Positions 701-19,946 of a stretch of 39,832 bases of DNA are shown one piece after another. The DNA is from an uncultured Lachnospiraceae bacterium (lineage in GTDB: Bacteria > Bacillota > Clostridia > Lachnospirales > Lachnospiraceae), in the NCBI GenBank assembly GCA_949948715.1, contig CATLGW010000023.1:1-39832 (forward strand), read 5' to 3'. The translations under genes were made by a program, and so were the position numbers. The notes below the pieces were generated by a model that was not told the origin of the DNA, did not search any database, and saw only the letters and a list, made by a program, of their open reading frames with translations. Every line of letters begins with the position of its first letter. The stretch's first letter is position 1.

Positions 701-702
701 TT

Positions 703-1461: not shown

Positions 1462-1588
1462 TTTTTTCTCATTTGATATTTGATACCTTCTATCATAAGC
1501 ATCTCCAGTTAAAATACCATACCAATCAATAATCCTTTCAACACAAGCATAATAACATCACAAATCCGGTATTAAATTAATCTGAATA

Positions 1589-2332: not shown

Positions 2333-2340
2333 GTATTATC

Positions 2341-2410
2341 AAAAAGTTCCCTATATTTCAACAACATTTTAGGGAACTTTTTGCAATATATTATTTTAAA
2401 AATTCCCTAA
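2341..2410. promoter_or_regulatory. Inverted TAGGGAA repeats upstream of the Fic-like gene
   Basis: A perfect 13-bp inverted repeat (AAAAAGTTCCCTA at 2341-2353, complement at 2370-2382, 16-base loop) sits just before the Fic-like start. A third related half-site (AATTCCCTAA, 2401-2410) lies upstream. Three copies of one core in the only promoter space suggest an operator for autoregulation. The palindrome could instead act as a terminator for the protease fragment that ends at 2432. Confidence 0.5.
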
Positions 2411-2431
2411 AAAAATACATAATAAAAGTTT

Positions 2432-3821
2432 TCAATCCGGCAGACTCGATCTGACACACAGTGCCCCCCATCCAACCCTATCGTTCGGGTACTCCCTCTC
2501 CCCCCGAAGCGCCCGGGCCCCCTTCCGCAGGTACGCCTTCACCTTCTCCCCATACAGGAACGGATCGTTCCCCCGCACAATCCCCCACTCCATCAACAGA
2601 GCCGCGCTGCCGCTGACAATGGGCGTGGCAAAGGAGGTTCCGGTGAAGGTGGCATATCCGCCATAGACATTGGGAGCCAGCACCCCCACTCCCGGCGCGA
2701 CTAAATCCGGCTTGGTCAATCCCGAGGTGATCACACCCACAGTCCGTTCCCTGTCCGCATATCCCCTTCCCGAGAAATCGACATAACTGTCATAAGTAGT
2801 GTCATAAGCCCCTACCGTCAGCACTTTTGCCGCTGTTGACGGTATCGTCAGTGTCACCTGAGGCGTCGGTCTGTAAAACCTGGTCTGCTCGTTGCGCACC
2901 GCGCTGCTGGGCAGATACAGATAATACCGTCCTGTCACCGTGGTGACGGGCACAATGCGAATCGTCCAAATACCGCTGTTGATATAATTCCGCTCTATGG
3001 GAATCATCTCCAGGTAAATCTCCTGGGCCACCGCATAGGGCGAGGGCTCTCCCCAATACACCAACACCTCCGTCTGCTCCGCCTGCAAAGTATATTTACC
3101 CCCCTCGATAGAAAGGGGCAGCTCCTGCTCCCGCCCTCCCGGGGACCGCAGATAGATCCGATAGACGTCGCTGTAATTTTTCCAGAGCTGTATATTCAGA
3201 GAAGTTTCATACTCTGCCACCGCCAGTTCAATATTCCCGCCCTCCGACACATTCCCCGCCAGGTGTCCTCCCGCACTCCCCTCGTTGCCGCTCCCCACAC
3301 AGATAACGGTTCTGCCGATCTCCGATGCGTTATCCAGATATCTTTCCAACAGCGAGCTCCCGTCATGGGAACCGTAATTGTTTCCGAAGCTTAAATTGAT
3401 GACCAGGGGCAGCCCCAGCTCCTGAGCTTTTCTCAGGGCATAGGCCACCCCCCGCATTATCTCCGTCGTTCTCGGAAACCCCATGGAGTCCGGCACCCCC
3501 AGCTTCACGATCAAAAGCTCCGCCTCGTAGGCCACGCCGCCGTAGGAATTGTTTCTCGTCCGGCTGCCCGCGGCGATTCCCGCTACCGCCGTCCCGTGCC
3601 CGCTCACGTCCCGGCTGGGCAGCAATTCGAACTGCCCCCTGTCGCCGGGCTCCTCCAGAGCCCTGTTGATGGCGTCCTGGTCGAACTCCACCCCCATCCT
3701 AAACCCTTCCGGCTGCTTTCCGCCGGGGGCGGCTTCCGGCATAAGGGTTTGATCCCACAGATACCGGATCCGCGTACTCCCGTCCTCCTTTCGAAAGTCC
3801 CAAAGACGATATTCTATCCCC
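2432..3821 (-). CDS. Csp-like S8 subtilisin protease, C-terminal part of an interrupted gene
   Basis: This is the C-terminal 80% of a subtilase of the type found in several copies in Lachnospiraceae (Csp-like). It contains the His motif SRDVSGHGTAVAGIAAG, the oxyanion-hole Asn in GSGNEGS, a long insert domain and the Ser motif FTGTSFATP. The catalytic Asp region is missing here and lies at 17344-17721. The open frame runs to a GTG at 3859, but 3822-3859 is recombinase-element DNA read out of frame (SGRCICLTG), and true homology begins at the GGGG core (3818-3821) with IEYRLWDFRKEDGSTRIR. Joined at the core, the protein is 588 aa with Asp125, His201 and Ser522. As it stands the fragment cannot be active. 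Known Csp proteins act in spore germination; that role is inferred. Confidence 0.92.
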
Positions 3822-3840
3822 TCTCCTGTCAAACAAATGC
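3818..3840 (-). other. Outer element attachment site, left junction
   Basis: The core GGGG (minus strand, 3821-3818) is shared with the right junction at 17344-17341. On the element side, four bases from the core, lies the arm CTGTCAAACAAATGC (plus strand, 3826-3840). The arm at the other end (17322-17336) matches it in inverted orientation at 11 of 15 positions and equal distance. The arm overlaps the stop codon of the outer recombinase. Confidence 0.85.
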
Positions 3841-4926
3841 ATCTCCCGGAGAAAGCCACTGGATTTCCACATGATCCCTGTCAAACACCCGAATTCGGCC
3901 GATGTACCGGGCGGCATCTTCCTCCGACAGCCTCCCGCCGGCATCCCCTCCTGCCTCAGCCATTCTACGTCTCAGCTCGCCGGTCACCAGCTCCTCCAAA
4001 TCCCCGGCATCCACCTTTTCCACACAGCCCTTCAGACCGCTCACATATCTCTGGTGGCAGTAATAATAGGGCTTCCTCGCCTTACGGCGGCACAGACACC
4101 GCCCGCAGCACCCGCAGAGAATTTTCCCCGCCAAAGGATTAATCTTTCTGACCCGGGATTCTTTGCCGCTTCGTCTCCCGGCCTGTATTTTCTCAAATAC
4201 CTTCCTCTCCACAATAGGCTCGTGGCAGTCGTGAAACACCCGCCACTCCTCCCTGGGCCTGAGACGGTTTCTCCCTCCCACAAAGTCCTTCTCATACTTT
4301 CCGCTGACAACATCCCCCACATAGACCGGATTCCGCAGAATCTGACAGACGGTAGAAGAGCTCCACAGATAAACGCCGCCCTTGGGCGCTCTCGCCCCAT
4401 ACCCCTTTCGAATCTTATATTCCATGGGAGTCATCACCTTTTCTGCGTTAAACAGCCGGGCAATCTGGGCGGAGGTATATCCTTGGCCGGTCAAGTCAAA
4501 TATCCTTCTCACGATCTGCGCCTCGTCCTCCGCCACCGCCAGCCTGTACCGGTCCCTGGGATCCTTCTCATACCCAAAGGGCGTTCTGCCGCTCACATAC
4601 CGGCCCTCTGCCTTTCTCACCCCCAGGGAGGCCCTGACCTTCTGGGACAGGTCCTTGCTGTAGAGGTCATACAGAAGGCTCTTGAAATTCACATCCAATC
4701 CCGCCACGGTTCCCCGATAATCCTCGCTGTCATAGCCGTCGTTCACAGAGATAAATCTCACGCCCAAAAAGGGAAACACCTGCTCCAGATAGGTTCCCAG
4801 GGCAATATAGTCCCGGGCAAACCTGGAAAAATCCTTGACCAGGATACAGTCCAGCTCGGATTGCCTGGCCGCCCGAAGCATCTCCTGCAGACCGGGGCGG
4901 TCAAGATTTGTTCCCGTGAAACCGTC
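3829..4926 (-). CDS. Large serine recombinase, C-terminal part of an interrupted gene
   Basis: This part holds most of the resolvase domain after its start (DGFTGTNLDRPGLQEML, VKDFSRFARDY), the recombinase DNA-binding domain and a zinc ribbon (CGCCGRCLC, then YYYCHQ). The frame is open upstream to 5190, but residues before DDGF do not match the family and lack the catalytic-Ser segment. The missing start lies at 17144-17299. Joining at the shared GAT gives REYIDDGFTGTN and a 417-aa protein with Ser14 in YLRLSKEDG. The stop is eight bases from the outer attachment core, which is tight even for an integrase. The fragment alone should be inactive. Removal of the inner element would restore it. 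Confidence 0.9.
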   Translation of the reverse strand, partial: DGFTGTNLDRPGLQEMLRAARQSELDCILVKDFSRFARDYIALGTYLEQVFPFLGVRFISVNDGYDSEDYRGTVAGLDVNFKSLLYDLYSKDLSQKVRASLGVRKAEGRYVSGRTPFGYEKDPRDRYRLAVAEDEAQIVRRIFDLTGQGYTSAQIARLFNAEKVMTPMEYKIRKGYGARAPKGGVYLWSSSTVCQILRNPVYVGDVVSGKYEKDFVGGRNRLRPREEWRVFHDCHEPIVERKVFEKIQAGRRSGKESRVRKINPLAGKILCGCCGRCLCRRKARKPYYYCHQRYVSGLKGCVEKVDAGDLEELVTGELRRRMAEAGGDAGGRLSEEDAARYIGRIRVFDRDHVEIQWLSPGDAFV

Positions 4927-4954
4927 ATCTATGTAGACGCCGTCTTTGATACAA
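4927..4954 (-). other. Inner element attachment site, left junction
   Basis: The shared core GAT is at 4929-4927 (minus strand). Exactly 15 bases inside the element lies TTTGATACAA (plus, 4945-4954). The identical sequence in inverted orientation lies 15 bases from the core at the other end (17120-17129). A symmetric attP of about 52 bp, with a GA central dinucleotide, fits large serine recombinases. Confidence 0.87.
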
Positions 4955-5047
4955 TCTGCCCTCTGCGTTGGCTCCCTTCTGTCCGCCGCAGCCTGAAGGT
5001 CAATCGTGGGCCCCCGGATGAAAGTAATAGAATTATTTCCGCGCTCA

Positions 5048-5056
5048 TGATATAAT
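5048..5056 (+). promoter_or_regulatory. Extended -10 promoter for the first cargo gene
   Basis: TGATATAAT at 5048-5056 is an extended -10 element (TGnTATAAT) without a good -35. It lies about 78 bp before the start at 5134 and inside the inner element, so this cargo gene brings its own promoter. Confidence 0.5.
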
Positions 5057-5133
5057 AAAAACATATTTACGGCAGAAAACGGCCGGATGGCTATCTTGAT
5101 TCTGCTAACGCGCAATCTCGGGAGGCAAGGAAG

Positions 5134-6105
5134 ATGGACGTATATTATAACGGAAACGGCAATATCTGGGGCCGCGGCAGTCAAAAGCATCGGCTGTCCC
5201 CCTTCCCTGTGGGCAGATCCTTTCTGTGGGGAGACCAGAAAATTCTGCTTCCTGCGGTCTATGTGGGCCGGGAGGGAGCCGTCCTGGACATATGCGCGGA
5301 AATATCCACACAGGAGATGTCGCTTTTTCTGAAAAAATGGAATCGGGAAAGAAGGCTCTCTCTCAGCTCCCAGGAGGATTACGAGCAGATTGATGCGGAC
5401 AATCCCGGCAGCCGGGAGTTTGAGATTAATTTGCGCCTGAACGGCGTGCCTTTGACCCGCCGCATGAGCAGCAGCATGAGATGGTATCCAAAGGGCCTTT
5501 TGCAGGATACGGAGGAGGACTGGGAAAATGACCCGGATGCCGAAAAGATGATGGAAGCCTGCGGCTGCGACAGAAAAAGCTGCTGGAATTTCACCAGAAC
5601 CGTTTACCTGTGGAAGGACGAGGCCGTATTATCCCCCCGGGAAGTGTCCCTGCTGTTAAAGGCGGAGCCCGTCTCCGTCACCGCCGGACATTTCACCACC
5701 ACCCTCAATTGCGGGGACAGAGAAGTGGAAATCATCCATCCGGCCACCAGGGAGAAGTATCTTTTGACGCTGCACGGCTGCGAGCAGGTCAGGCACAGCT
5801 TTTCCGAGATCGGGGAACCGGGGATGCTCTACCCCGAGTACAGTCAGACCCTCCTCTACAGCGTCTCCCCGGAAATAGACCGCAGCCTGCTGCACATCCG
5901 CGACTGCGCGGAGAACGACCCGCCCAGGGCGACGGAAAGGTCAGGGGACGGACCCACGGCAGTTTTCCTGGCCGGCAGGGACCCGGCCCCGGACAGACGG
6001 ATCGCCCACGCCGCCCTCCACTTTGAACCCGCCTCCGAAATCCGCTGGAGAGTGATTTTCAGTGTGAAACCCCGGGAGGACATGGAAATCGGCTTTTCCG
6101 TCTGA
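5134..6105 (+). CDS. Uncharacterised protein (323 aa)
   Basis: I do not recognise a domain. The 323-aa protein has no signal peptide or membrane segment, so it is probably cytosolic. It is rich in Trp, Arg and acidic residues. Features are an N-terminal GRSFLWGDQKILLPAVYVG stretch and a central block resembling an alternation of beta-strands (about 150-230). A GGAGG at 5121-5125 supports the ATG at 5134. It is the first cargo gene inside the left end of the inner element and ends 85 bp before the EFR1 ferredoxin gene on the same strand, so the two may be co-transcribed. Long shadow frames on both strands reflect high GC content, not extra genes. Confidence 0.7.
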   Translation: MDVYYNGNGNIWGRGSQKHRLSPFPVGRSFLWGDQKILLPAVYVGREGAVLDICAEISTQEMSLFLKKWNRERRLSLSSQEDYEQIDADNPGSREFEINLRLNGVPLTRRMSSSMRWYPKGLLQDTEEDWENDPDAEKMMEACGCDRKSCWNFTRTVYLWKDEAVLSPREVSLLLKAEPVSVTAGHFTTTLNCGDREVEIIHPATREKYLLTLHGCEQVRHSFSEIGEPGMLYPEYSQTLLYSVSPEIDRSLLHIRDCAENDPPRATERSGDGPTAVFLAGRDPAPDRRIAHAALHFEPASEIRWRVIFSVKPREDMEIGFSV

Positions 6106-6190
6106 CTGCCTCCCGAAGCCCCAGCGGCATCACCGAACTGATCTATGAGAAAAGAAAACCCAAAACATCGACACAAAAAGGAGCTTTACT

Positions 6191-6955
6191 ATGTCCGTTT
6201 ATAATATCACATTCAGTCCTACCGGAGGAACAAGGAAGGTTTCCGAACTGTTTACGGACGCATTCTGTGACAAATATATCCCCGTCGACCTGTGCGGCCG
6301 AAGCGATGATTTTGCCTCATACGTCTTTTGCCCGGAGGATATCTGCGTGATCTCGGTTCCCTCCTACGGCGGAAGGGTACCCGCCCCCGCCCTGGCGCGG
6401 CTACGCCGGATGAGGGGAAACGGTGCGGCAGCAATCCTGATCGCGGTGTACGGAAACAGGGCATACGAGGATACCCTTGCGGAAATGCAGGACGCTCTCA
6501 CCGAGGCGGAATTTTTGTGCATTGCCGGGGTGGCCGCCGTCGCCGAGCATTCCATAATGCGCCAGTTTGCCGCCGGTCGTCCCGACAGACAGGATGCGGA
6601 AGAGCTGGCGGGCTTCGCCCGTACCCTCCGCTCCCGGCTAAAGTCGGGCCAGCCGGGAGCTCCCCTACATTTACCGGGGAACCGCCCTTACCGGGAGTAC
6701 GGGGGCGTGCCCATGAAGCCCCAGGGGGGAAAGGCCTGCACACAATGCGGGCTCTGCGCGGAGCAATGCCCCGTGGAGGCAATCGATGCCGCTGATCCCG
6801 CAAAGACCGATACCTCCCGCTGCATCTCCTGTATGCGCTGCGTGACCCTCTGCCCGCAAAAAGCCCGCGGCGTAAGCAAAGCGCTCCTCACCGCGGGCAG
6901 CCTGAAGCTGAAAAAGCATTGCAGCGGACATAAGAAAAACGAATTGTTCTTATAA
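6191..6955 (+). CDS. EFR1-family flavodoxin-ferredoxin protein
   Basis: The 254-aa protein has a flavodoxin-like N-terminus. ITFSPTGGTRKVSELF is the phosphate-binding loop for FMN, followed by the SVPSYGGRVP loop. Near the C-terminus are two [4Fe-4S] motifs, CTQCGLCAEQCP and CISCMRCVTLCP (about 185-225). Such EFR1 proteins are thought to pass electrons between FMN and iron-sulfur clusters in the cytosol of anaerobes; specific partners are unknown. A strong AAAAAGGAG at 6175-6182 sets the start. The 3' end overlaps the convergent ECF gene by six bases, leaving no room for a separate terminator. Confidence 0.9.
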   Translation: MSVYNITFSPTGGTRKVSELFTDAFCDKYIPVDLCGRSDDFASYVFCPEDICVISVPSYGGRVPAPALARLRRMRGNGAAAILIAVYGNRAYEDTLAEMQDALTEAEFLCIAGVAAVAEHSIMRQFAAGRPDRQDAEELAGFARTLRSRLKSGQPGAPLHLPGNRPYREYGGVPMKPQGGKACTQCGLCAEQCPVEAIDAADPAKTDTSRCISCMRCVTLCPQKARGVSKALLTAGSLKLKKHCSGHKKNELFL

Positions 6956-7537
6956 TCTGGTGCCTTGAACCGTCTCCGTTTTCTCCGTCCTTTGGCCAAA
7001 CCGCACCAGCCCGGTGCGGTTCAGAGCCACCATGACAGCCGGTATCACAATCAACTGGAGGATAATTCCGGGAATTGCGTTAAGGAACGCGCCCGCCATA
7101 AACATCTGCCAGGTGAATCTTCCGCCCTTCACGCCCAGCAGAACCATCTGGACAATTCCCCAAACGACGCGCCCCGAGAGCATGGCAAGAATCAGACTGC
7201 GATACAGAGCGATCACACAATGCCAGCGGGAACGGGAATAGATCAGCCCCACCGTCAGTCCGTAGGCGGCCAGCTCGAAAGCCATGGCGATTCCCGTGGG
7301 AAAAAGCCGCGGCATACCGAACACAAAGTACCTCAAAACAGGCAGCGTAAATCCCACTGCCAGCCCGTACTGCCAGCCGCAGATCAGGCCGCACAAAATT
7401 ACGGGGATATGCATGGGCAGGAGCATACTGCCAAACTGAGGTATCTGTCCCGTAATAAAGGGCAGCACCATCCCCATAGCCATAAACATGGCGGATAAAG
7501 TTATATTGAGAATATATGTATGCTTTTTATCATTCAT
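6950..7537 (-). CDS. ECF transporter S component
   Basis: The 195-aa protein has about six hydrophobic segments and the S-component signature near the start (LSAMFMAMGMVLPFITG, then LPMHIPVILCGLICGW). S components bind a vitamin or related micronutrient in the membrane and dock onto the shared EcfAAT energising module, which is not encoded here, so it would use a module from elsewhere in the genome. The substrate cannot be read from the sequence, and no riboswitch is evident upstream. A sigma-A promoter lies 33-61 bp before the start. The C-terminal tail after the last helix (FGQRTEKTETVQGTRL) is cytosolic and variable. Confidence 0.85.
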   Translation of the reverse strand: MNDKKHTYILNITLSAMFMAMGMVLPFITGQIPQFGSMLLPMHIPVILCGLICGWQYGLAVGFTLPVLRYFVFGMPRLFPTGIAMAFELAAYGLTVGLIYSRSRWHCVIALYRSLILAMLSGRVVWGIVQMVLLGVKGGRFTWQMFMAGAFLNAIPGIILQLIVIPAVMVALNRTGLVRFGQRTEKTETVQGTRL

Positions 7538-7569
7538 TTTTGCACCTTCCCACTGTTTATTTCACCAAC

Positions 7570-7598
7570 AGTTTAACAAACCTCACCTCCTTTGTCAA
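7570..7598 (-). promoter_or_regulatory. Sigma-A promoter for the ECF S-component gene
   Basis: On the minus strand TTGACA (7598-7593) and TAAACT (7575-7570) are separated by exactly 17 bases. The AGGAGGTGAGG inside the spacer is a coincidental ribosome-binding-site-like sequence. Confidence 0.65.
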
Positions 7599-7720
7599 TT
7601 CCGCCCCAACCCTGGTTCTTCCTGCCTGAAATCTGCGCCGGCCTGCCGGCAATCACCGTAACAGCGCCGGCCCGGGCCGCCGCCTTACCTACAAGATACG
7701 GAACAATCGGCGGAAAAGAT

Positions 7721-7749
7721 TTGTTATTCTGCGCTAAAAATGATATAAT
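7721..7749 (+). promoter_or_regulatory. Sigma-A promoter for the MATE exporter
   Basis: TTGTTA (7721-7726), a 17-base spacer and a perfect TATAAT (7744-7749) lie 35 bp before the start codon. It is divergent from the ECF promoter and about 120 bp from it. Confidence 0.75.
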
Positions 7750-7783
7750 AATTATATTATGCAAAAATTCAGGGAGGAGCGCA

Positions 7784-9163
7784 ATGGAAAACGCAGAGAA
7801 GACAGAGCTGTTTGAGCAAACCCCCATCCCCAGGGCGGTTATGACCCTGGCGATCCCCACCATATTAAGTTCTCTTGTTATGGTCATCTACAATCTGGCA
7901 GACACCTACTTTGTGGGCATTCTGAACGACCCGGTGCAAAACGCCGCCGTAACCCTTGCGGCCCCGGTGCTGTTAGCCTTCAATGCGGTGAACAATCTCT
8001 TCGGTGTGGGTTCCTCCAGTATGATGAGCAGAGGGCTGGGGGCGAAGGATTACGATACGGTATACACCAGCTCCGCCATCGGCTTTTACTGCGCTTTGAT
8101 CAGCGGCATTTTGTTCTCCACCTTCTACTCGGTCTTTCATGCTCCCCTCCTGACTATGCTGGGGGCGGACGAGGGCACGGTGGCGGCCACGGGGGAATAC
8201 CTGAAATGGACCGTCAGCTTCGGCGCGGCGCCCGCCATCCTGAATGTGGTCATGGCCTATCTGGTGCGGGCGGAGGGTTCCTCCCTCCACGCCAGCCTGG
8301 GGACCATGAGCGGCTGCTTTCTGAACATCCTCCTGGACCCCATATTTATTCTGCCCTGGGGACTTGGTATGGGAGCGGCGGGGGCCGGGCTGGCCACCTT
8401 CCTGTCCAACTGCGCGGCCTGCCTGTATTTCTTCGTCCTGCTGTTCATAAAACGGGGACGCACCTATGTCTGCATACGCCCTTCCATGTTCCGCTTTAAG
8501 AGGCCCATCGCGCTTGGCGTCCTGGCCGTAGGGGTCCCCGCCGCCATCCAGAATCTGCTGAATGTGACGGGTATGACCGTGCTGAACAACTTCACGGCCT
8601 CCTTCGGCGCCGACGCGGTGGCCGCCATGGGAATCTCCCAGAAGATCAACATGGTTCCCATGCAGGTAGCTTTCGGACTGTCCCAGGGAATTATGCCCTT
8701 AATCAGCTACAACTACGCCAGCGGGAACGTGCCCCGTATGAAAAAGACCCTTACCTTTACGGTAAAAATCAACCTGTCCTTCATGTTTACGCTGTCCCTG
8801 TGCTGTTTCCTGGGTGCGGGCTTCCTCATTTCCCTCTTTATGAAGAACCCGGCCATCGTGGCCTACGGAACCCGGTTCCTGCGGGGCCTGTGCCTGGGAA
8901 TGCCCTTCCTGTGCATGGATTTCCTGGCGGTGGGGGTATTCCAGGCCTGCGGCATGGGCAGAAAGTCGCTGGTTTTCGCAATCCTGCGAAAGATTATCCT
9001 GGAGATACCGGCGCTCTTTATCCTGAACAGCCTGTTCCCGCTGTACGGTCTGGCCTACGCCCAGTTTGCCGCCGAGTTTATTCTGGCTGCCGCGGCGGTG
9101 TTGGTACTGCTTCGTATGTTCCGGAAGCTGGAACGTCAGCATGGGGACTCCAGAGCAAATTGA
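7784..9163 (+). CDS. MATE-family multidrug/sodium antiporter
   Basis: The 459-aa protein has twelve predicted membrane helices in two related halves, as is normal for MATE exporters. The first half holds IPTILSSLVMVIYNLADTYFVG and the second begins near PAAIQNLLNVTGMTVLNNF. The family exports cationic drugs or metabolites in exchange for sodium or protons; the substrate is unknown here. The ATG at 7784 follows GGGAGGAG (7772-7779) and a good promoter. The frame is open further upstream, but that stretch contains the promoter and cannot be coding. The next transporter gene starts 58 bp after the stop, on the same strand, so the two probably form an operon. Confidence 0.92.
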   Translation: MENAEKTELFEQTPIPRAVMTLAIPTILSSLVMVIYNLADTYFVGILNDPVQNAAVTLAAPVLLAFNAVNNLFGVGSSSMMSRGLGAKDYDTVYTSSAIGFYCALISGILFSTFYSVFHAPLLTMLGADEGTVAATGEYLKWTVSFGAAPAILNVVMAYLVRAEGSSLHASLGTMSGCFLNILLDPIFILPWGLGMGAAGAGLATFLSNCAACLYFFVLLFIKRGRTYVCIRPSMFRFKRPIALGVLAVGVPAAIQNLLNVTGMTVLNNFTASFGADAVAAMGISQKINMVPMQVAFGLSQGIMPLISYNYASGNVPRMKKTLTFTVKINLSFMFTLSLCCFLGAGFLISLFMKNPAIVAYGTRFLRGLCLGMPFLCMDFLAVGVFQACGMGRKSLVFAILRKIILEIPALFILNSLFPLYGLAYAQFAAEFILAAAAVLVLLRMFRKLERQHGDSRAN

Positions 9164-9221
9164 CACTGCATACATTTATGAAAGGAGAAAGGGCTGCTGC
9201 TCCCGACAGCCCGCAAAGGAA

Positions 9222-10583
9222 ATGGAAAGAGAAAAACTAGGCTCACGAACAGGATTTATCCTGCTCTCCGCAGGCTGCGCCATCGGCATCGGCAATGTGT
9301 GGCGCTTCCCCTACATCACCGGCCTGTACGGGGGAGGGGTGTTTGTCCTCCTCTATCTGTTCTTTCTAATCGCCATGGGCGTTCCCGTGATGACCATGGA
9401 GTTTGCCGTGGGACGTGCCAGTCAGAAGAGCATTATCAAGAGCTTTCAGGCTCTGGAAAAACCCGGACAGAAATGGCATTTAAACGGATGCCTGGGCATG
9501 ATCGGGAATTACCTTCTGATGATGTTCTACACCACCGTGACAGGATGGATGCTGTACTATTTCTACCAGATGATGACGGGTAAATTCCAGGGCAAGGACA
9601 CGGAACAGGTGGGAGAAATGTTCCAGGATATGCTGTCCAGCCCGCTGATTCTCACCGGGGCCATGGTAATCATTGTGGTGGCCGGTATACTCATCTGCTC
9701 CATCGGACTGCAAAAAGGGGTAGAGCGGATCACCAAGATCATGATGAGCCTTCTGTTAGTCATTATCATCATTCTGGCAGTGCATAGCTGCACCCTGGAG
9801 GGCGGCCGGGAGGGTTTGAAATTCTATCTGCTGCCGGACTTTGAACGGACGAAGGAGGTGGGAATCTGGGCCACCGTAAACGCCGCCATGAATCAGGCCT
9901 TCTTCACTCTCAGCCTGGGCATCGGAGCCATGGGAATTTTCGGCAGTTACATTGACAAAAAGCGAAGCCTGCTGGGAGAATCGGTGAATATCGCCATTCT
10001 GGACACCTTCGTGGCCTTCGTGTCCGGCCTGATCATCTTCCCAAGCTGCTTCGCCTTCGGCATCAGTCCGGCCCAGGGCCCCAAGCTGATCTTTGTGACC
10101 CTGCCCAACGTGTTTAACGGAATGGCCGGGGGACGGATCTGGGGAACCCTCTTCTTCATCTTTATGACCTTTGCGGCCTTTTCTACGATTTTGGCCGTGT
10201 TTGAGAACATTATCTCCTGCTGTATGGATCTGTTCCACTGGGGCCGGAAAAAGGCCTGCCTGATCAACCTGGCAGCCATCACCCTCCTGTCTCTGCCCTG
10301 CGCCCTTGGCTTTAACCTGCTCTCCGGCTTTCAGCCCATGGGAGAGGGAAGCACGGTTTTGGATTTGGAGGATTTCCTGGTGAGTAATGTGATTTTGCCC
10401 ATCGGCTCCCTGTGCTACCTTCTGTTCTGTGTCACCCGCTTCGGCTGGGGCTTTCATAATTACAGGGAGGAGGCCAACACCGGGTCGGGCCTGAAGCTGC
10501 CCCGCTTTATCAGATTTTATGTGACCTATATCCTGCCCCTTTTGCTTCTGTTTATGATTGTAAAAGGCCTCATTCCCGCATAA
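9222..10583 (+). CDS. Neurotransmitter:sodium symporter (NSS) family transporter
   Basis: The 453-aa protein begins with the NSS/LeuT signature (GSRTGFILLSAGCAIGIGNVWRFPYI), where unwound helix 1 binds sodium and substrate. About eleven hydrophobic segments follow, as is common in bacterial NSS proteins. Family members import amino acids with sodium; the substrate here is not identifiable. The frame is open to 9066, inside the MATE gene, but homology starts at the ATG at 9222. The AAAGGA before it is very close to the ATG, so translation may depend on the MATE gene upstream. The gene ends shortly before a hairpin at 10601-10646. Confidence 0.92.
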   Translation: MEREKLGSRTGFILLSAGCAIGIGNVWRFPYITGLYGGGVFVLLYLFFLIAMGVPVMTMEFAVGRASQKSIIKSFQALEKPGQKWHLNGCLGMIGNYLLMMFYTTVTGWMLYYFYQMMTGKFQGKDTEQVGEMFQDMLSSPLILTGAMVIIVVAGILICSIGLQKGVERITKIMMSLLLVIIIILAVHSCTLEGGREGLKFYLLPDFERTKEVGIWATVNAAMNQAFFTLSLGIGAMGIFGSYIDKKRSLLGESVNIAILDTFVAFVSGLIIFPSCFAFGISPAQGPKLIFVTLPNVFNGMAGGRIWGTLFFIFMTFAAFSTILAVFENIISCCMDLFHWGRKKACLINLAAITLLSLPCALGFNLLSGFQPMGEGSTVLDLEDFLVSNVILPIGSLCYLLFCVTRFGWGFHNYREEANTGSGLKLPRFIRFYVTYILPLLLLFMIVKGLIPA

Positions 10584-10600
10584 AAATCCGAAAACAAAAC

Positions 10601-10646
10601 AGGGAGACATGAAACGGCTGCTTCCTATGCCGTCTTATGTCTCCCT
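10601..10646 (-). terminator. Intrinsic terminator between convergent NSS and chemoreceptor genes
   Basis: AGGGAGACAT (10601-10610) pairs perfectly with ATGTCTCCCT (10637-10646), with an inner ACGGC/GCCGT stem. On the minus strand it is followed by GTTTTGTTTT, so it best serves the chemoreceptor transcript. It may also stop the NSS transcript from the other side. Confidence 0.75.
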
Positions 10647-10764
10647 TCCAGGATCTGTCCCCAATACCTTTTCATATAAATACTGCTTCCTGAACCCGAG
10701 AATAAATCAAACCAATATGTCTAGCAACGCATTGCAGATAAGTTACCGATCAAACGACTGTCCT

Positions 10765-12465
10765 CTACTTTTTCAATGTAAACTGTCCCACCAACTGCTC
10801 CAGACTTGTGGACTGGGCAGACAATTCCTCGCTGGTGGCAGAGGTCTCCTGGGCCGCTGCGGAGTTGTTCTGTATCACCTCTGCAATCTGCTCGACGCCG
10901 GCCTCCAACTGCTTCATGGCTTCCGCCTGGGAGACTGACAATGTGCTGATTTCATTTGTGGATTGCGCCAGTGTATTGATCCCCTCGATAATAGCTTCGA
11001 TTGCGTCCGTTGTCCTGGCCGTAATCTCATTCCCCCGCTCGATCTCCTGAATGGAATTCTCGATCAGGCTCTTGGTGTTGACAGCCGATGTGGCGCTGTC
11101 TGCCGCCAGCTTTCCGATCTGGTCCGCAACCACCGCGAAGCCCTTTCCTGCCTCGCCTGCTCTGGCCGCTTCAATGGAAGCGTTGAGGGACAAAAGGTTG
11201 GTCTGGGACGCGATATCCTCAATGGCGGTGATAATATTTACAATCTCCTTGGAGGTCGTATTGATTCTCTCCATGGCCTGATTCAGGAGACGGATATCCT
11301 CATTGCTCTTTTCCGCCTCGCCCCTGAACACCTCGGCGTCATGATGGGAGCGCTCCGCTTTCTCCGAACTGTGAACGATATTCTCCGTAATATTCTGTAT
11401 GGTAGCCGTCAGCTCTTCCACGGCAGCCGCCTGGTTGGTGGCTCCCTCCGCCAGCGCCTGAGCGCTCTCGGCCATCTGGCCCGCTCCCAGGGAGACCTGC
11501 TCTGAGGATTCCTGAATGGTGCCCATGGCAACACTCAGGGAGGCAATAATTTTCTCAATGGCAACCGCCAGGGCATGAAAATCGCCTCTGAAATCCACAT
11601 CGGTGGAAATATTGAAGTTGCCCTCCGCAATCTCGCCCAGCCCCCTGGAAAGCTCCGCAATATATGTTTTTATCATGCGGGCAGCCTCCAGGAAGGCATC
11701 GGTCATCTCACCGATCTCATCCGGGTACATCTTATCCAGCTCAATATTCAAATCTCCCCTTGCAAGCTGTACGGAAGCGTCGCGAACCTTGACGATAGGC
11801 TCCGCAAACAGTCTGGCCACAAACCTGGCAAACCGCACGGAAATCAAGAAGGAGACGATGACCACAGCCACCACCACTCCCAGGATTATCATAACGATCA
11901 ACTGCACATTGCGGGAAATTCGATTGCCCACCTCCACATTCAGGTCAATCAGGCCCTCCACCGCGTCCGTCAGCCTTCTGAGCGCCGGCTTGCCCTCCGC
12001 CATCAAAAGATCCACAGCCTCGTCGTTCTTATTCTGCTCCGCCAAATCCTCCACCCGGGAAAATATTTCGCGATATTCCGGCAGAGTTTCGTTGATTGTC
12101 CGCACATACTCCAGCTCCTGGGCTGAGGTGCAATGCGCTTTCATAACCTCCAGAGCCGCGTCCGTCTTCGCGCGCACCTCCGCCAGCTCAGCAGCCGCAG
12201 CCTGCAGCTCCGCCTCATCCGTCAATAGAATCAACTCTCTGATCATGGCCGGTTCCTTGTTCAAATAAGTACTGAATATCCCGATCTCCCCCTGAGAGAA
12301 ACCGTTTTCCACCAGCACGGTGCTGTAACTGGCATTGGTGAAAATCAACGCTAAAATTCCCAGAATGCCCGAGATGCTGGCAAGCATCACCACCAGCGTA
12401 AAACAGTATCTCAGCTTCTTTTCCACCTTCATGCTCTTTATTTTCTCAATCATATTTTTACCCAT
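10765..12465 (-). CDS. Methyl-accepting chemotaxis protein
   Basis: The 566-aa protein has a short cytoplasmic start, a first membrane helix (about 22-44), an extracytoplasmic four-helix-bundle sensor (about 45-185), a second helix (about 188-210), a HAMP domain (about 212-265) and a long coiled-coil signalling domain. The hairpin tip [20 protein letters not shown], which binds CheA and CheW, is intact. The ligand is unknown. The start could be the ATG at 12465 or the one at 12453; ACAGGGAAGA favours the first. No other chemotaxis gene is in the window. It is unusual cargo for a recombinase element. A second Na-linked transporter convergent to it is probably coincidental. Confidence 0.93.
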
Positions 12466-12567
12466 TCTTCCCTGTTATATCTCTATAACATACCCGACAG
12501 CCTCGTCCTGGGTAGCTTAAACACAACACTATATTCTCATGTCAAGGTGCTAGGAAATCCTGTTACA

Positions 12568-12596
12568 ATTATAGCATTTCTCCGATCAAAAAGCAA
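12568..12596 (-). promoter_or_regulatory. Sigma-A-like promoter for the chemoreceptor gene
   Basis: On the minus strand TTGCTT (12596-12591), a 17-base spacer and a perfect TATAAT (12573-12568) lie about 100 bp before the start. In the rest of the 220-bp space between the divergent genes I see no clear promoter for the plus-strand SpoIID-like gene, which would fit an alternative sigma factor. Confidence 0.6.
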
Positions 12597-12685
12597 GGGC
12601 AGCGCTCCCGGGCGCGGATCCCGGTAACTGATTCCCCACTCCCACATATTAATAGAATATAAACAAAAAGGAGAGTACTCTCAAT

Positions 12686-14503
12686 ATGGCAATCGGTTAT
12701 CTAACAGTGCAGGCCCGGACAGCCCAGGAGGCGGTTCCCTTGAGCGGCGTACAGGTAAGCATTTTGAACGAGCAGGGAACACCGGTATATGAGCTTGTCA
12801 CGGACGAGAGCGGCGACACCCAGACCGTCCCTCTGGAGACCAAGGATAAAAGTCTTTCCCAAAACCGCTTTTTTACGGGTAATCCCTATCTGAGCTACCA
12901 TGTGCTGGCTCAGGCGGAGGGCTTTAACTCCCTCTACGTCACCTATATCCCCATTTTAGACGGCGAGACCGCCGTTCTGCCCCTGTCTATGGTACCCATG
13001 CAGGAAAGACAGGCGGTGCCCGGACAGGAGGAGATCACCGTGGGGGCTCCTGCCGCGGCCATGCGTGTGTCCCGGGAACAAGAGGGACCTGTGGGGAGTC
13101 CCTATGTGCTGCGCCAGGTGGTGATCCCCAATCCCATAACGGTGCATTTGGGTTCCCCCTCCTCCTCCGCACAGAATGTACAGATATCCTTTCCCGATTA
13201 TATCAAAAATGTGGCCAGCAGCGAGATTTACTCCACCTGGCCCGACGCGTCCCTGCGGGCAAACATCTACGCCATGATCACTTTTGCCCTGAACCGGGTT
13301 TACACCGAATGGTACAAAAATAAGGGCTACAGCTTCGACATCACCAACAGTACCGCCTATGACCAGGCGTTCATCTACGGGCGTCCCATCTACGAGTCCA
13401 TAAGCAGGATCGTGGACGAGATCTTCAACCAGTATGTCCGCAGACAGGGCCAGATTGCACCCTACTTTACCTCCTTCTGCAACGGCTCCACCACAACCTG
13501 CCCGGGGCTGTCCCAGTGGGGCACGGTCACCCTGGCGAACCAGGGACTGACTCCCTTGCAGATTCTGCGCTCCTATTATCCAAGCGACGTGGAGATCGCG
13601 GAAACCAACATTATCACGGGCAGTTTAAGCTCCTACCCCGGAACGCCCCTGCGGGTGGGCAGCGTGGGCCTGGATGTCCAGACCATTCAGACCTATTTAA
13701 ACCGGATCCGGCAAAACTATCCCGCCATACCGGCCATCACCGACGGGGCGGGCCTGTTTCAGGACAGCACCAGGGCCGCGGTGACCAAGTTCCAAAGCCT
13801 GTTCCAGCTCACTCCCGACGGTGTGGTGGGAAGATCCACCTGGTACAAAATCTCCGCCCTCTACACCGCCGTGACCAGGCTTGCCGAACTGGACAGCGAG
13901 GGCGTATCCCTGGGAATCGGCACCGTTCCCCCCGGCAGCGTGCTGCGGCAGGGCTCCAGAGGGCAGGACGTGATCACTCTGCAATATCTATTGGATGTCA
14001 TATCCGAGTATTATCCCGGTGTACCCGCCCCCACCCAGGACGGCATCTTCGGCAGCGGTACGAGACAGTCCGTTATCGCCTTCCAGCAGGCCAAGGGCTT
14101 AAATCCCGACGGCATTGTGGGCTCCCTCACATGGCAGGCGCTGTACGACACCTATCTGGGCATCCATGAGAACGTGCCTGTTCCCGGCCCGGGAACGGAC
14201 ACCGTGGAATATGTGGTGCGGCCCGGAGACAGTCTGTGGCTCATCGCTCAGAAATACCACACCACCGTGGATACCCTGAAGAGCCTGAACGGCCTCACCA
14301 GCGATCTATTAAATATCGGCCAGGTGCTCCGGGTTCCCGCCGGCCAAGGCCCCTCCTATATCGAATACACCGTCCGTTCGGGAGATACCCTGTGGCTGCT
14401 CTCTCAAAGATACAACACCACCGTGAGCGCTATCAAGAATCTCAACGGCCTCACCAGCGACATCCTGAATATCGGCCAGGTGCTCCGGATCCCCATCGGC
14501 TAA
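12686..14503 (+). CDS. SpoIID-like protein with two peptidoglycan-binding and two LysM domains
   Basis: The 605-aa protein starts with a carboxypeptidase-regulatory-like beta fold (about 1-110). A segment resembling SpoIID/LytB follows (about 165-315; RANIYAMITFALNRVYTEW, then FTSFCNGSTTTCPGLSQWG). Next are two PG_binding_1 repeats (about 325-395 and 415-490; the second reads DGIFGSGTRQSVIAFQQAKG) and two LysM repeats (about 510-555 and 560-604; YVVRPGDSLWLIAQKYHT). There is no signal peptide, as in many spore-coat or mother-cell proteins. SpoIID enzymes are lytic transglycosylases that drive engulfment; activity here is unproven. AAAAAGGAGAG sets the start. The stop overlaps the convergent recombinase stop. 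Confidence 0.85.
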   Translation: MAIGYLTVQARTAQEAVPLSGVQVSILNEQGTPVYELVTDESGDTQTVPLETKDKSLSQNRFFTGNPYLSYHVLAQAEGFNSLYVTYIPILDGETAVLPLSMVPMQERQAVPGQEEITVGAPAAAMRVSREQEGPVGSPYVLRQVVIPNPITVHLGSPSSSAQNVQISFPDYIKNVASSEIYSTWPDASLRANIYAMITFALNRVYTEWYKNKGYSFDITNSTAYDQAFIYGRPIYESISRIVDEIFNQYVRRQGQIAPYFTSFCNGSTTTCPGLSQWGTVTLANQGLTPLQILRSYYPSDVEIAETNIITGSLSSYPGTPLRVGSVGLDVQTIQTYLNRIRQNYPAIPAITDGAGLFQDSTRAAVTKFQSLFQLTPDGVVGRSTWYKISALYTAVTRLAELDSEGVSLGIGTVPPGSVLRQGSRGQDVITLQYLLDVISEYYPGVPAPTQDGIFGSGTRQSVIAFQQAKGLNPDGIVGSLTWQALYDTYLGIHENVPVPGPGTDTVEYVVRPGDSLWLIAQKYHTTVDTLKSLNGLTSDLLNIGQVLRVPAGQGPSYIEYTVRSGDTLWLLSQRYNTTVSAIKNLNGLTSDILNIGQVLRIPIG

Positions 14504-15879
14504 ACCTGCGTTCGGATTTCCGTCCCGTTCCGGAACAGAAATCGGATATCCTCCCGGCCGTAGACAGTGACCTCCTCCACCAGGCTGCGCCAGCCCTCCT
14601 CGTCAAAGGCGGCAAAGGGGCCAGGGCCTTCCTCCTCTCCCCCCTTGACATGGTCTTCCCCCTCCCCCATGCCATACAGGAGAGAGAGCTCCCGGAGGGC
14701 TCTGCGCGCATCCTCCTCCCATCCCTCCTTCCTGAGAAGGAGATTTTCCGCCCTCACAAAAAGCCGCTTCAGGGCTTCCTCCTCCAGACAGGGGGCAGCG
14801 CAGCGCAGCTCTGGGTCATGCCTGCTGCCACACTGCCACACTCTGCGCCTGTAGCGGTCGTTGGAATGCCACACTTTGGGGCCGTACCAATTTCCGCACT
14901 CTCCGCACTTTATTTTTCCGGCCAGAACCCCCACGCTGCTCACACGCCCCCTGCCCGCCTTTCTGCGGGCCAACAGCCCCTGAACCGCGTCAAAGACTTC
15001 CGGGGAAACAATGGCCTCGTGGCTGCCCTCCACATAATATTGGGGCACCTCCCCTGTGTTTACTTTTTTCTTTTTCGTCAAAAAGTCTACGGTATACACC
15101 TTCTGCAGCAGAGCGTCGCCCTTATATTTTTCGTTGGAAAGAATGCTTCTCACCGTCCGGTGGGCCCACACAGATCCCCCGCCCGGAGCCGGTATTCCCT
15201 CCTTTGTCAGCCCCTTGGCAATGCCCCAGGGGGACTGCCCCTGCAGGAACAGACCGTAAATCCTGCGCACTACGGCGGCCTGGCCCTCATCGACCACAAG
15301 CCCTCCGTCCGCCCCTCTCTCAAACCCCAGAAAGCGCTTAAAGGGCACGGTGGCCCTGCCGTCCGCAAACCTCTTACGCTGTCCCCAGGTACAGTTTTCA
15401 GAGATGGACCGGCTCTCCTCCTGGGCCAGGGAGGACATGATGGTCAATAACAGCTCCCCCCTGCCGTCAAAGGTCCAGATGTTTTCTTTCTCAAAAAAGC
15501 ACTCCACCCCCCGCTCCTTCAGCTTCCGTATGGTAGTCAGACTGTCCACCGTGTTTCTGGCAAATCGGGAGACGGATTTGGTGAGAATCAGGTCCATACG
15601 TCCCTCCATGGCGTCCGCCACCATGCGGTTAAATCCCTCCCTGTGCCTGGTGCTGCAGCCCGATATGCCCTCGTCCGCGTACACCCCCACGAATTCCCAG
15701 TCCCCTCTCCCCTGAATATAACGGGTGTAATAATCCACCTGGGCCTCGTAGCTGCTCTGCTGCTCCTCGTGGTCGGTGGAAACCCGGGCATAGGCGGCCA
15801 CCCTGCGTCTGGGCCGATCCCCCTCCTCTCCCCGGTTCGCTTTCCCCACAGCAGGAATCAAAATTACATTTTTTGCCAT
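14500..15879 (-). CDS. Large serine recombinase of the inner element (459 aa)
   Basis: The protein has the full large-serine-recombinase layout: resolvase domain with catalytic Ser34 in AAYARVSTDHEEQ (about 25-175), recombinase domain (about 195-300), zinc ribbon (CGECGNWYG, then VWQC) and a C-terminal helical region. It acts on short attachment sites through a phosphoserine intermediate. The frame is open to 16134, but the ATG at 15879 (MAKNVILIP) is preceded by GGGGAGGGGG and fits family starts. It overlaps the 311-aa recombinase by 16 bp, so the two are translationally coupled. It looks fully intact and is the best candidate to excise the inner element. Confidence 0.93.
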   Translation of the reverse strand: MAKNVILIPAVGKANRGEEGDRPRRRVAAYARVSTDHEEQQSSYEAQVDYYTRYIQGRGDWEFVGVYADEGISGCSTRHREGFNRMVADAMEGRMDLILTKSVSRFARNTVDSLTTIRKLKERGVECFFEKENIWTFDGRGELLLTIMSSLAQEESRSISENCTWGQRKRFADGRATVPFKRFLGFERGADGGLVVDEGQAAVVRRIYGLFLQGQSPWGIAKGLTKEGIPAPGGGSVWAHRTVRSILSNEKYKGDALLQKVYTVDFLTKKKKVNTGEVPQYYVEGSHEAIVSPEVFDAVQGLLARRKAGRGRVSSVGVLAGKIKCGECGNWYGPKVWHSNDRYRRRVWQCGSRHDPELRCAAPCLEEEALKRLFVRAENLLLRKEGWEEDARRALRELSLLYGMGEGEDHVKGGEEEGPGPFAAFDEEGWRSLVEEVTVYGREDIRFLFRNGTEIRTQV

Positions 15880-16799
15880 ATCCCCCTCCCCGGATCCCCG
15901 GTTTCGGACAGTTCCTTCCCGAATCTCTCCTGCGCCCGGGCGAAGTCCTCCCGGCTTACTATGGGGGCGTGATCGTCCCGCACATAATATTGGGGCAGGT
16001 TCCCTCTGTTGGGAAGCCTGCGTCGGCTGACGGGATCCTGCACATAGCATTTCTGATACCTTCGGTCTCCCACATACAGTTCGTTCTGCAGAATATATCT
16101 GAGGCCGCTGCCGGAAAACCCGCAGCCTCTCCACGTCACGGCCCCCGCCTCGTTCAGTTCCCGACGGATCTCTCCCACCGGGGCGCCGGAAAGAAACCGG
16201 GCAAAGATCCGCCTTACGATTTCCGCCTCCCCGGGCAGGATCTCATATTTCTCCCCCACACAGCGATACCCCAGCACACGCTTGTTTTTCACCCGGATAT
16301 CCCCGGACTGATACCTTTCCCGTATGCCCCATTTTATATTTTCCGAGAGAGAACGGCTCTCCTCCTGGGCGAAGGAGGCCAGAAGGGAGAGCATCAGTTC
16401 CCCGTCTCCGGAGAGAGAGTCGATCTTCTCCCTCTCAAACCAGACCCCCACGCCGAGCTCTCTCAGCCGTCTCACCGTGGAGAGCAAATCCACCGTATTT
16501 CTGGCAAATCTCGAGATACTCTTGGTCAGCACCAGATCGATCCGGCCCGCCTCGCAGTCCTCCAGCAGCCTCCCGAATCCGTCCCGTCCTCTGACGGCGG
16601 CGCCGCTGATCCCAAAATCCTCATATATTCCCGCGTATTCCCACTCCTGACAGGCCCGAATCCGCTCCCTATAATAATCCGCCTGCGCCCGCAGGGAATG
16701 CTCCGGTCGGGCAAAGGCCCGGGACACCCGGACATAGGCCGCCACCCGCCTTCTCTCACCCGGCTCCCGCCCCTTCTTCTCAATCACACGGATTTTCAA
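15864..16799 (-). CDS. Serine recombinase without zinc ribbon (311 aa)
   Basis: The protein has an intact resolvase domain with catalytic Ser26 (VAAYVRVSRAFARPEHS) and the TKSISRFARNTVD motif, then a recombinase DNA-binding domain. It ends at about 311 aa, lacking the zinc ribbon and coiled coil seen in its neighbour. Paired short and long recombinases suggest a two-subunit system or a directionality role, by analogy with other tandem recombinases; this is inference. Its ATG overlaps the stop of the 83-aa gene (ATGA, 16796-16799), and its end overlaps the 459-aa gene, giving a tight three-gene operon. Confidence 0.92.
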   Translation of the reverse strand: MKIRVIEKKGREPGERRRVAAYVRVSRAFARPEHSLRAQADYYRERIRACQEWEYAGIYEDFGISGAAVRGRDGFGRLLEDCEAGRIDLVLTKSISRFARNTVDLLSTVRRLRELGVGVWFEREKIDSLSGDGELMLSLLASFAQEESRSLSENIKWGIRERYQSGDIRVKNKRVLGYRCVGEKYEILPGEAEIVRRIFARFLSGAPVGEIRRELNEAGAVTWRGCGFSGSGLRYILQNELYVGDRRYQKCYVQDPVSRRRLPNRGNLPQYYVRDDHAPIVSREDFARAQERFGKELSETGDPGRGIWQKM

Positions 16800-17047
16800 G
16801 GATACTCACACCTCCCCCTCCCGTCCAAAGCCTTCTCCCTCAAAGCTTTCTCCTTCAAGGCCTTCCCCTCCAGAAGCATTCCCAGTGTGGGCCTGTATTT
16901 AGATAACAGATGATTTTTTATCTCCTCATATCCCTCTTCCGCGTAAATCCCCTGATCCCTTTTTCTCCTCACGTCGGCAAGACACAGCAGATACAAAAGC
17001 TCCGCCCGAAACTCCCCCGGGTCCATACGCCAGGACTTCTGCCCCAT
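16796..17047 (-). CDS. Small recombinase-operon protein (83 aa), SHOCT-like
   Basis: This short helical protein contains RRKRDQGIYAEEGYEEIKNHLL, which resembles a SHOCT-like motif (a short amphipathic segment with a conserved Glu-Glu-Tyr/Phe pattern), and then a Lys/Glu-rich tail. The ATG at 17047 follows GGTGGGGG and suits the domain better than the open frame to 17128. It is the first gene of the recombinase operon, about 100 bp from the right inner junction, and is coupled to the next gene by ATGA. A recombination directionality or accessory factor is a reasonable guess, given position alone. Confidence 0.7.
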   Translation of the reverse strand: MGQKSWRMDPGEFRAELLYLLCLADVRRKRDQGIYAEEGYEEIKNHLLSKYRPTLGMLLEGKALKEKALREKALDGRGRCEYP

Positions 17048-17119
17048 ATCCCCCACCTCAGTACCTCCGCCCGGCCTTTGCCACATTCTATGTGCCCGAA
17101 GCTTGTCACTATGCCCATT

Positions 17120-17146
17120 TTGTATCAAATCAGGGATTTATCTATC
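17120..17146 (-). other. Inner element attachment site, right junction
   Basis: The core GAT is at 17146-17144 (minus strand). Fifteen bases inside the element lies TTTGATACAA (minus, 17129-17120), a perfect inverted partner of the arm at 4945-4954. Bases just beyond the core on the host side read CGGGAGTACATT, coding for Arg-Glu-Tyr-Ile of the split recombinase. Confidence 0.87.
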
Positions 17147-17299
17147 AATGTACTCCCGAAGAACGCACCCCGGAAAATGCTCCTCCGCATACTGTGAAAG
17201 TAGAAGCCTCTGCAGGGAGATGCTGCCGCTCTCCGCCCCATGTCTGCCGTCCTCCTTGGACAGGCGCAGATACATTGCCGCTCGATAATTTGTGTTCAT
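17144..17299 (-). CDS. Large serine recombinase, N-terminal part of an interrupted gene
   Basis: These 52 codons encode the start of a serine recombinase, with Tyr10-Leu-Arg-Leu-Ser14 as the catalytic motif (AAMYLRLSKEDG), then GSISLQRLLL and REYID. After Asp52 the frame enters the inner element and stops within two codons (AGA TAA). It is missed by ordinary gene calling because it is so short. GGGAGGT, seven bases before the ATG at 17299, is an excellent ribosome binding site and overlaps the stop codon of the truncated protease, so translation of the two should be coupled. The remaining 365 residues are at 3829-4926. Confidence 0.9.
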
Positions 17300-17304: not shown

Positions 17305-17721
17305 TTACCTCCCTCCCAATGGCATCTGCACAACAGCCTCCCCCGAATCAATTACCGCCACCAGCACTCCTCTCCCGCCAAGCAGCGGCTCCTGCCGCAT
17401 CACCTGCTGCAGACAGGAGGTGTCGGCGGGCGCCACCTGGTAAAAGAACCGCTTGGGCATCTCCACATATTCAATCTCCTCCACCTGGGCCATCCGGTTT
17501 ACCATTCCCTCCGGAACGGTCAGAATGGCATAGCCGGCAATCAGATATTCCACCTGTATCCCCAGACTGCCAAGGCTCTCCAGACTGCCGTGATACTTTA
17601 CAATCAATTCCCAGGTTCGCTCCCTGCTGTCATATCCCACATTCAGGCTCTCCGTTCTTTCTCTGACAGCCTCCGGCGTCTCCAGCGCCAAAGCCAGCAA
17701 ATCCTCAAATTTTTGACTCAT
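17305..17721 (-). CDS. Csp-like S8 subtilisin protease, N-terminal part of an interrupted gene
   Basis: This part carries the propeptide-like domain (about 1-95; MSQKFEDLLALALETPEAV, then YLIAGYAILTVPEGMV) and the start of the catalytic domain with the Asp motif GVLVAVIDSG (Asp125, Gly127). Homology ends at the GGGG core (17344-17341), and the next twelve codons (EAVVQMPLGGR) come from the element before a TAA at 17305-17307. ATG at 17721 is preferred over the one at 17733, which lies inside a hairpin arm. The product as it stands has no His or Ser and cannot be active. Joined to 2432-3820 it forms a normal-length 588-aa protease. Confidence 0.92.
   Translation of the reverse strand: MSQKFEDLLALALETPEAVRERTESLNVGYDSRERTWELIVKYHGSLESLGSLGIQVEYLIAGYAILTVPEGMVNRMAQVEEIEYVEMPKRFFYQVAPADTSCLQQVMRQEPLLGGRGVLVAVIDSGEAVVQMPLGGR
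17322..17344 (-). other. Outer element attachment site, right junction
   Basis: The core GGGG is at 17344-17341 (minus strand). The arm CTGTTGTGCAGATGC (minus, 17336-17322) lies four bases from the core, the same distance as its inverted partner at 3826-3840. Confidence 0.85.
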
Positions 17722-17723
17722 AA

Positions 17724-17772
17724 AAACCCCCATATATATGCCCTTATAACATATATATGGGGGTTTCCTCCT
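17724..17772 (-). promoter_or_regulatory. AGGAGG separated from the protease start by a 17-bp hairpin
   Basis: On the minus strand AGGAGG (17772-17767) directly abuts AAACCCCCATATATATG (17766-17750 region). After a nine-base loop its exact complement follows and ends two bases before the ATG at 17721. Folding the hairpin would bring the ribosome binding site next to the start. The unfolded spacing (about 45 bases) would be too long. This resembles structured initiation regions described in phage T4. Confidence 0.75.
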
Positions 17773-19158: not shown

Positions 19159-19177
19159 ATCACATCCCTTCCGCCGC

Positions 19178-19729: not shown

Positions 19730-19759
19730 TTCAATCAACACATCCTTTCCTTATTTTAA

Positions 19760-19932: not shown

Positions 19933-19946
19933 TTGTATTATTTTCC

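Follow-up and report, generated by a model that had tools for sequence, protein, structure and literature searches.

An uncultured Lachnospiraceae bacterium carries, almost certainly, the record of a two-level insertion in a csp-type germination protease gene: the gene was split by a small element with a single large serine recombinase, and the recombinase gene was in turn split by a second element of a kind that recurs in other recombinase genes. The window, that is, the whole analysed stretch of 39,832 nucleotides (contig CATLGW010000023.1), belongs to a metagenome-assembled genome (MAG) of 2.29 Mb with 66.7% completeness. We consider it probable that the arrangement as a whole is as described and that restoration of csp is likely to need two ordered excisions. 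A nested insertion had been proposed in a preliminary description of the window, and the present analysis confirmed both splits and both pairs of junctions. Loci and genomes used for comparison are labelled below with L- and G-numbers, respectively.

The N piece of csp (17305..17733, minus strand) encodes the prodomain (PF18425 CspB_prodomain, E=2.1e-31) and the catalytic Asp motif VAVIDSG, and the C piece (2432..3838, minus strand), which is open to its stop codon, encodes the His and Ser motifs SGHGTAVAG and GTSFATP (PF00082, E=1.1e-31). The C piece also matched NF040809 CspBA with an E-value of 1.1e-102, under the curated cut-off of that model. Specifically, the coding sequence starts at 17733, breaks after VLVAVIDSG, just past the catalytic Asp motif, where the N piece is cut at the outer crossover, and restarts with LTGEGIEYR at 3838. 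The crossover was placed from the in-frame restoration and from relatives in two GG cores on the minus strand, one in the left attachment site (attL, 17342..17343) and one in the right (attR, 3819..3820). The empty outer site, with the outer element removed, would read GATTCGGGGATAG, and the joined csp flanks read RGVLVAVIDSGIEYRLWDFR, the same as the uncut site in the relative L105. The outer element has a net length of 1,306 bp and contains a single gene, that of the recombinase, whose start and stop codons lie 42 nt and 8 nt from the respective outer crossovers; it is the smallest among those seen whole. As in gin/skin-type elements, a sporulation or germination gene is split such that precise excision restores its frame, and the element has its own site-specific recombinase, here present but split.

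The outer recombinase is encoded in two pieces on the minus strand. An N piece of 52 codons (17144..17299), recognized by alignment, supplies the catalytic Ser14 in a YLRLS motif, and a C piece of 365 codons (3829..4926), recognized by family models and alignment, contains the Recombinase domain, the Zn ribbon and most of the Resolvase domain. The coordinates given in the preliminary description for this displaced start, which provides the serine missing from the C piece, proved correct. Together the pieces make 417 codons, and the break lies in the conserved motif Y-I-D/D-G (a slash marks the break here and below), where an inner segment of 12,217 bp intervenes, so the outer enzyme of the window does not have the one continuous reading frame of a large serine recombinase. 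The in-frame join into a protein of 417 amino acids had been predicted with an alignment as its check, and we ran this with the two pieces as separate rows against ten relatives and as separate queries against 31 recombinase open reading frames (ORFs). The pieces met at neighbouring columns in the alignment with the ten relatives, and comparison with intact relatives showed neither loss nor duplication of residues at the join. In the seven best matches of the N piece, its end and the start of the C piece fell on adjacent residues (52/53, 51/52, 55/56, 61/62, 53/54, 57/58 and 60/61). All seven matches were of the csp-proximal recombinase class, and origin of the N piece from another recombinase of a triple set was therefore rejected. 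Also rejected was an ordinary intact gene that starts at another codon within the inner segment: the frame is open to 5190, but this extension lacks a catalytic serine, and the N terminus of relatives aligns to the distant 52-codon piece. Outer-type recombinases lacking the coiled-coil stretch were seen in at least three genomes (window 3829-4926, L029 and L013).

Relatives of the outer recombinase were surveyed in named genomes in one scan, which confirmed 584 relatives, and 80 loci were kept. A csp C piece was found at most 3.2 kb downstream of the recombinase in 38 of the 80 loci, starting at residues 93-129 of the csp query (at residues 126-129 in 23 of the 38), and a csp N piece stopped at residue 128 in seven loci. 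The same csp codon is interrupted across relatives, with the N piece stopping and the C piece restarting there. The recombinase was unbroken across the split point in 74 of the 80 loci, ended at a contig edge in three and was broken in three, and the preliminary description's suggestion that relatives might carry an intact recombinase in the same gene was borne out, at the same csp codon, for example, by L054/L097, L053/L095, L098 and L100. The uninterrupted site is common as well: a csp match spanning it was present in at least 59 of 138 genus genomes, a hand count among the matches listed in which paralogues are not separated. Among the outer elements of relatives seen whole, L098 and L100 have three recombinases and L090 has two. 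The csp C part of G100 (split) and that of G069 (uncut at this site but interrupted further downstream) differ with a nonsynonymous rate (dN) of 0.047, a synonymous rate (dS) of 0.49 and a dN/dS of about 0.10, a value that averages both lineages and the time preceding the insertion and is as expected if the split csp gene still works. As far as its sequence goes, the outer element is a member of a widespread csp-splitting, gin-like family.

Several further csp interruptions were observed. At L090:6583-12031 (G000:C1), the same D-[ST]-G/I codon is broken in a second csp-type gene of that genome, whose pieces are separated by two recombinases and a 97-amino-acid ORF. L095 (G161) has a doubly interrupted csp gene (8458-8955 and 19119-20000): the first break is in the usual codon, the second some 170 residues later, and a further recombinase lies between. 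Recombinase sets also split csp at a third position, close to the C terminus (around residue 419 of the window C piece), at L105:100-246 and 396-5160 and also in L033, L104 and L102. A small ORF of 89-97 amino acids with a DIGGI motif lies just ahead of the first csp-element recombinase in L235 (736-1005) and L090 (7050-7343); it is a possible candidate for an accessory or directionality factor. In the window itself, a remnant resembling by eye the end of the csp C piece (FLFGEKVKTYLRKGVRAP...EREYPNA) lies at 800-920 on the minus strand, and the low-GC (guanine plus cytosine) left flank at 1589-2332 (minus strand) contains an ORF that looks Fic/DOC-like by eye and had no NCBIfam match.

The ends of the inner segment are two halves of one symmetric site. 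Inner attL (17120..17152, minus strand) reads TACATTGA/TAGATAAATCCCTGA-TTTGATACAA with its GA core at 17145-17146, and inner attR (4922..4954, minus strand) reads TTGTATCAAA-GACGGCGTCTACATAGA/TGACGG with its GA core at 4928-4929; with the inner element removed, the empty site would be TACATTGATGACGG. The combined half-sites give TTGTATCAAA-15-GA-15-TTTGATACAA, a site of 52 bp with each arm 15 bp from the GA, exactly as the preliminary description had it. No exact site of that form occurred in 60 Markov-simulated windows. The exact form was found in two viral-contig stretches: in L154 it adjoins a homologous recombinase gene, and in L153 the 3.2-kb stretch examined contains no such gene. Uncut attP sites stand just after R2 homologues (R2 is described below) in L154, with exact arms, and, with one mismatch in one arm, in two genomes of the window's own genus, L081 and L082.

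At the 17144 end of the inner segment, a recombinase module was identified on the minus strand in the order SHOCT-like ORF, R1 and R2. The small SHOCT-type ORF at its head (16796..17128; PF20612, E=5.8e-6) has an uncertain true start; the serine recombinase R1 (15864..16799) has 311 amino acids, and the serine recombinase R2 (14500..15876) has 458. The domain set of a large serine recombinase is complete in R2, with Resolvase, Recombinase and Zn ribbon present and the coiled coil shortened, and incomplete in R1, from which the Zn-ribbon part is missing.

Junctions of the inner type were found in many other serine recombinase genes. Of the three broken loci in the survey of 80, L225 and L233 carry this attR at the identical codon, and L238 is degenerate; an att-like sequence is also present in L255, one of the loci ending at a contig edge. 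Inner attR sites were surveyed by pattern in 397 family genomes and in viral contigs. The attR sequence followed by GAYGAYGG occurred in seven of the 397 genomes, and its reversed control in none. The pattern fixes D-D-G only and leaves the residues beyond unconstrained, and in all seven matches the next residues are [FY]-[ST]-G, as in the serine recombinase motif, with the reading cut short soon after in G501 and G526. In viral contigs, 11 of 12 attR matches (L447 being the exception) continue as serine recombinases, and R2-like sequence lies upstream in those 11, near full length in seven and partial in four. The split genes belong to several serine recombinase subfamilies and are broken at the motif Y-x-D/x-G. 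A search for attL with exact arms gave matches in 10 of 12 genomes, of which one beyond the window (L300, G402) reads a recombinase N terminus; for L074, in which attL was found, the stretches examined contained no partner attR. When the half-site pattern was used without the target requirement, at least 120 stretches matched.

The target preference was also seen in a scan of viral contigs with the R2 protein alone, att sites being ignored, which yielded 80 loci. Of these, 14 share 72% identity or more with the L271 R2; the target could be assigned for nine of the 14 and was in every case a serine recombinase gene. Among the nine, L460 is reverse-oriented (by eye), L458 lies in an R2-like gene, and L459:3688 and L461:9720 lie in another conserved serine recombinase stretch, H/E-(A or P)-I. 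This stretch appears to be a second target of the same wider R2 group. Most of the 66 less similar loci were unclassified, and the classified ones lie in hsdM, methyltransferase-type or comM-type genes (partly by eye). Since several of the nine contigs are common to both, the att-pattern and R2-protein viral tests overlap. An R2 tree of 28 rows has one clade of 16 proteins (support 99/97), made up of 13 of the 14 rows that target recombinase genes and the three with an uncut attP, whereas the comM and hsdM targeters and L450 lie outside it; the window R2 falls inside the recombinase-targeting clade, its exact place being unsure because its branch is long (0.81) and its composition skewed. It is very likely that this R2 clade prefers serine recombinase genes as its target.

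Both inner ends were visible in two further csp elements, L235 and L237, with inserts of 5,444 bp and 5,181 bp. Their host gene is the first recombinase gene of the csp element, a different one from that of the window, and the recombinase pieces fit intact relatives without a gap in 8 of 8 and 7 of 8 best comparisons, respectively; the inner cargo is unlike that of the window. L237 comes from an isolate, Bacterium D16-51 (contig RAYE01000042.1), where the inner element spans about 8,307-13,487 and the csp pieces lie at about 7,552 and 16,404. Inner elements lie in recombinase genes of the csp elements of the window, L225, L233, L235, L237 and L259.

The inner cargo of the window comprises seven ORFs, five of which match transporter, ferredoxin, chemotaxis or cell-wall-type families. 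These five are a SpoIID-like/peptidoglycan-binding/LysM protein (12686..14503, plus strand; family models), a methyl-accepting chemotaxis protein (10765..12465, minus strand), a sodium-dependent transporter (9066..10583, plus strand; NF037979 above cut-off) and a MATE-family transporter (7592..9163, plus strand; TIGR00797, a general family model, above cut-off, with the more specific models well short of theirs), both transporter ORFs having uncertain starts, and a 4Fe-4S ferredoxin-domain protein (6191..6955, plus strand). A membrane protein (6950..7537, minus strand) and a protein present in 13 of 138 genus genomes (5134..6105, plus strand) had no family-model match in the scans made of each; the former is presumably an ECF-type substrate component, a name not backed by any model match. 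The gene at 12686-14503 is present in 59 of 138 genus genomes (E<=1e-100), a count that bears the description widely kept and not core. A 64% identical homologue of 6950-7537 lies near a homologue of this gene in 2 of 10 relatives examined. A conserved cargo block was rejected, as neighbours differ among relatives. A prophage was rejected by a PHROGs scan of 10 inner ORFs, in which no portal, terminase or capsid match was found; the matches were to integrases for R1 and R2, to LysM and peptidoglycan-binding (endolysin-type) families for 12686-14503 (one of which PHROGs files under head and packaging), and to one tape-measure family for the chemotaxis protein (E=0.00099).

In the mechanism that we propose, the inner SHOCT-R1-R2 module would have integrated as a circle through recombination of its 52-bp attP with an attB, with the crossover at the GA in the Asp codon of Y-I-D. 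With the inner element excised, the outer recombinase would be whole again and could cut out the 1.3-kb outer element by crossover at GG. This second step would restore csp, and by analogy with gin and gerE the mother cell during sporulation is the most plausible place for it. If both steps work, the inner-first, outer-second order is forced by the anatomy. That such ordered excision is live in this organism is possible, but we lean somewhat against it.

Several observations weigh against a working two-step system. R1 has 311 amino acids versus 520-522 in L310 and L271 and is without the Zn-ribbon part, and R2, at 458 versus 525, has lost part of its coiled coil; in one study, phiC31 integrase no longer recombined once its coiled coil was deleted, and recombination by LI was impaired (PMC10754689). 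Some nested loci look decayed, since the csp-proximal recombinase of L235 is shortened (residues 1-255, csp restarting 78 bp on) and the csp C piece of L233 is a short ORF. For most of the other genomes with an inner attR, no partner attL was recovered. The inner segment carries this genome's only strong match to the widely kept 12686-14503 gene, so loss of the inner circle could be costly, and the MAG itself is incomplete. In addition, no directionality factor turned up, no systematic search for candidates having been made.

A frozen remnant, in which the insertions took place as described but the inner and perhaps the outer recombinases are dead and csp and the outer recombinase are now pseudogenes, nothing being excised, is a serious contender, just short of evenly balanced. 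The parts lost from R1 and R2, the long R2 branch, the widely kept gene among the cargo and the state of L233 and L235 all point to it. However, all pieces are open, with no stop codon or frameshift, and the proportion of nonsynonymous differences (pN) is well under that of synonymous differences (pS) in R1, R2 and both pieces of the outer recombinase. The csp C piece also has a branch length like that of uncut copies, with window-pair dN/dS values of 0.12-0.21 at a dS near saturation.

By disrupting the outer recombinase, the inner insertion might also act as a lock that prevents loss of the outer element and of itself, and be retained for that effect regardless of whether it is ever excised. 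The inner elements in recombinase genes of six csp elements favour this reading, but inner relatives also lie in recombinase genes without csp nearby, so target choice alone is no argument for service to csp elements, and we consider such a lock quite unlikely. A broader proposal, in which the paired-recombinase clade has evolved to integrate at the catalytic-motif codons of serine recombinase genes in other elements, so that its elements are hyperparasites of mobile DNA and form a two-key lock in csp elements, with csp rebuilt only by two excisions in fixed order during sporulation, is tentative and on the unlikely side. That the 12.2-kb interval is host chromosome joined by rearrangement or misassembly is highly improbable: it does contain a gene that 59 of 138 genus genomes share, whose neighbour matches in 2 of 10 relatives, but mirror half-sites with identical spacing stand at both ends, beside a module whose relatives keep attP uncut, matching att junctions are not produced by misassembly, and the same kind of insertion with different cargo occurs in L235 and L237.

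The two-level insertion shares features with known systems. In Bacillus cereus ATCC10987, as described in the available part of the report, gin lies in gerE and has three serine recombinases, and gerE is restored during sporulation by GirC and GirX (PMC5595907). Like gin as described there, the outer element is a non-phage element with a serine recombinase that splits a sporulation-related gene in frame, and its relatives L098 and L100 also have three recombinases; unlike gin, it targets csp, measures 1.3 kb net, has one recombinase that itself carries a second element and is known from sequence alone. The csp operon of C. difficile is sigma-E dependent, according to the accessible text (PMC3789822). 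Skin in sigK, SPbeta in spsM and yin in yabG are likewise site-specific elements in sporulation genes with excision shown or proposed to restore the gene, but they are prophage-like, and no nesting inside a recombinase is described in the portions of the reports at hand (PMC5025042, PMC4191935, PMC10747680). Large serine recombinase elements are known to target sites such as a Mg-chelatase gene (PMC10083194, available text); they use the same enzyme family, and R2 relatives at about 60% identity sit in comM here, whereas the R2 clade sits in serine recombinase genes, a target that the same text does not mention. Similar to CcrA/CcrB, R1 and R2 are paired serine recombinases and match the CcrB model (E=1.7e-35 and 7.7e-34), but with 122.7 and 117.2 bits against a curated cut-off of 900, and the target is not the staphylococcal cassette chromosome (SCC) site. 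In the open-access literature, with subscription papers and preprints largely outside it, we found no paper on csp-splitting recombinase elements or recombinase-gene-targeting elements and no description of a two-step dependent developmental rearrangement.

If the order of excision is true, this would be a developmental DNA rearrangement with two dependent steps, in which the first step is required before the enzyme of the second can be produced. Whatever its function, a clade that targets conserved recombinase catalytic codons explains how repeated stacking of elements is possible and provides a predictable landing site in many mobile elements. It also implies that both halves of a seemingly dead recombinase will often escape gene callers. 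Moreover, because germination genes in gut Lachnospiraceae genomes are commonly split, the absence of csp from such genomes does not mean that the function is absent.

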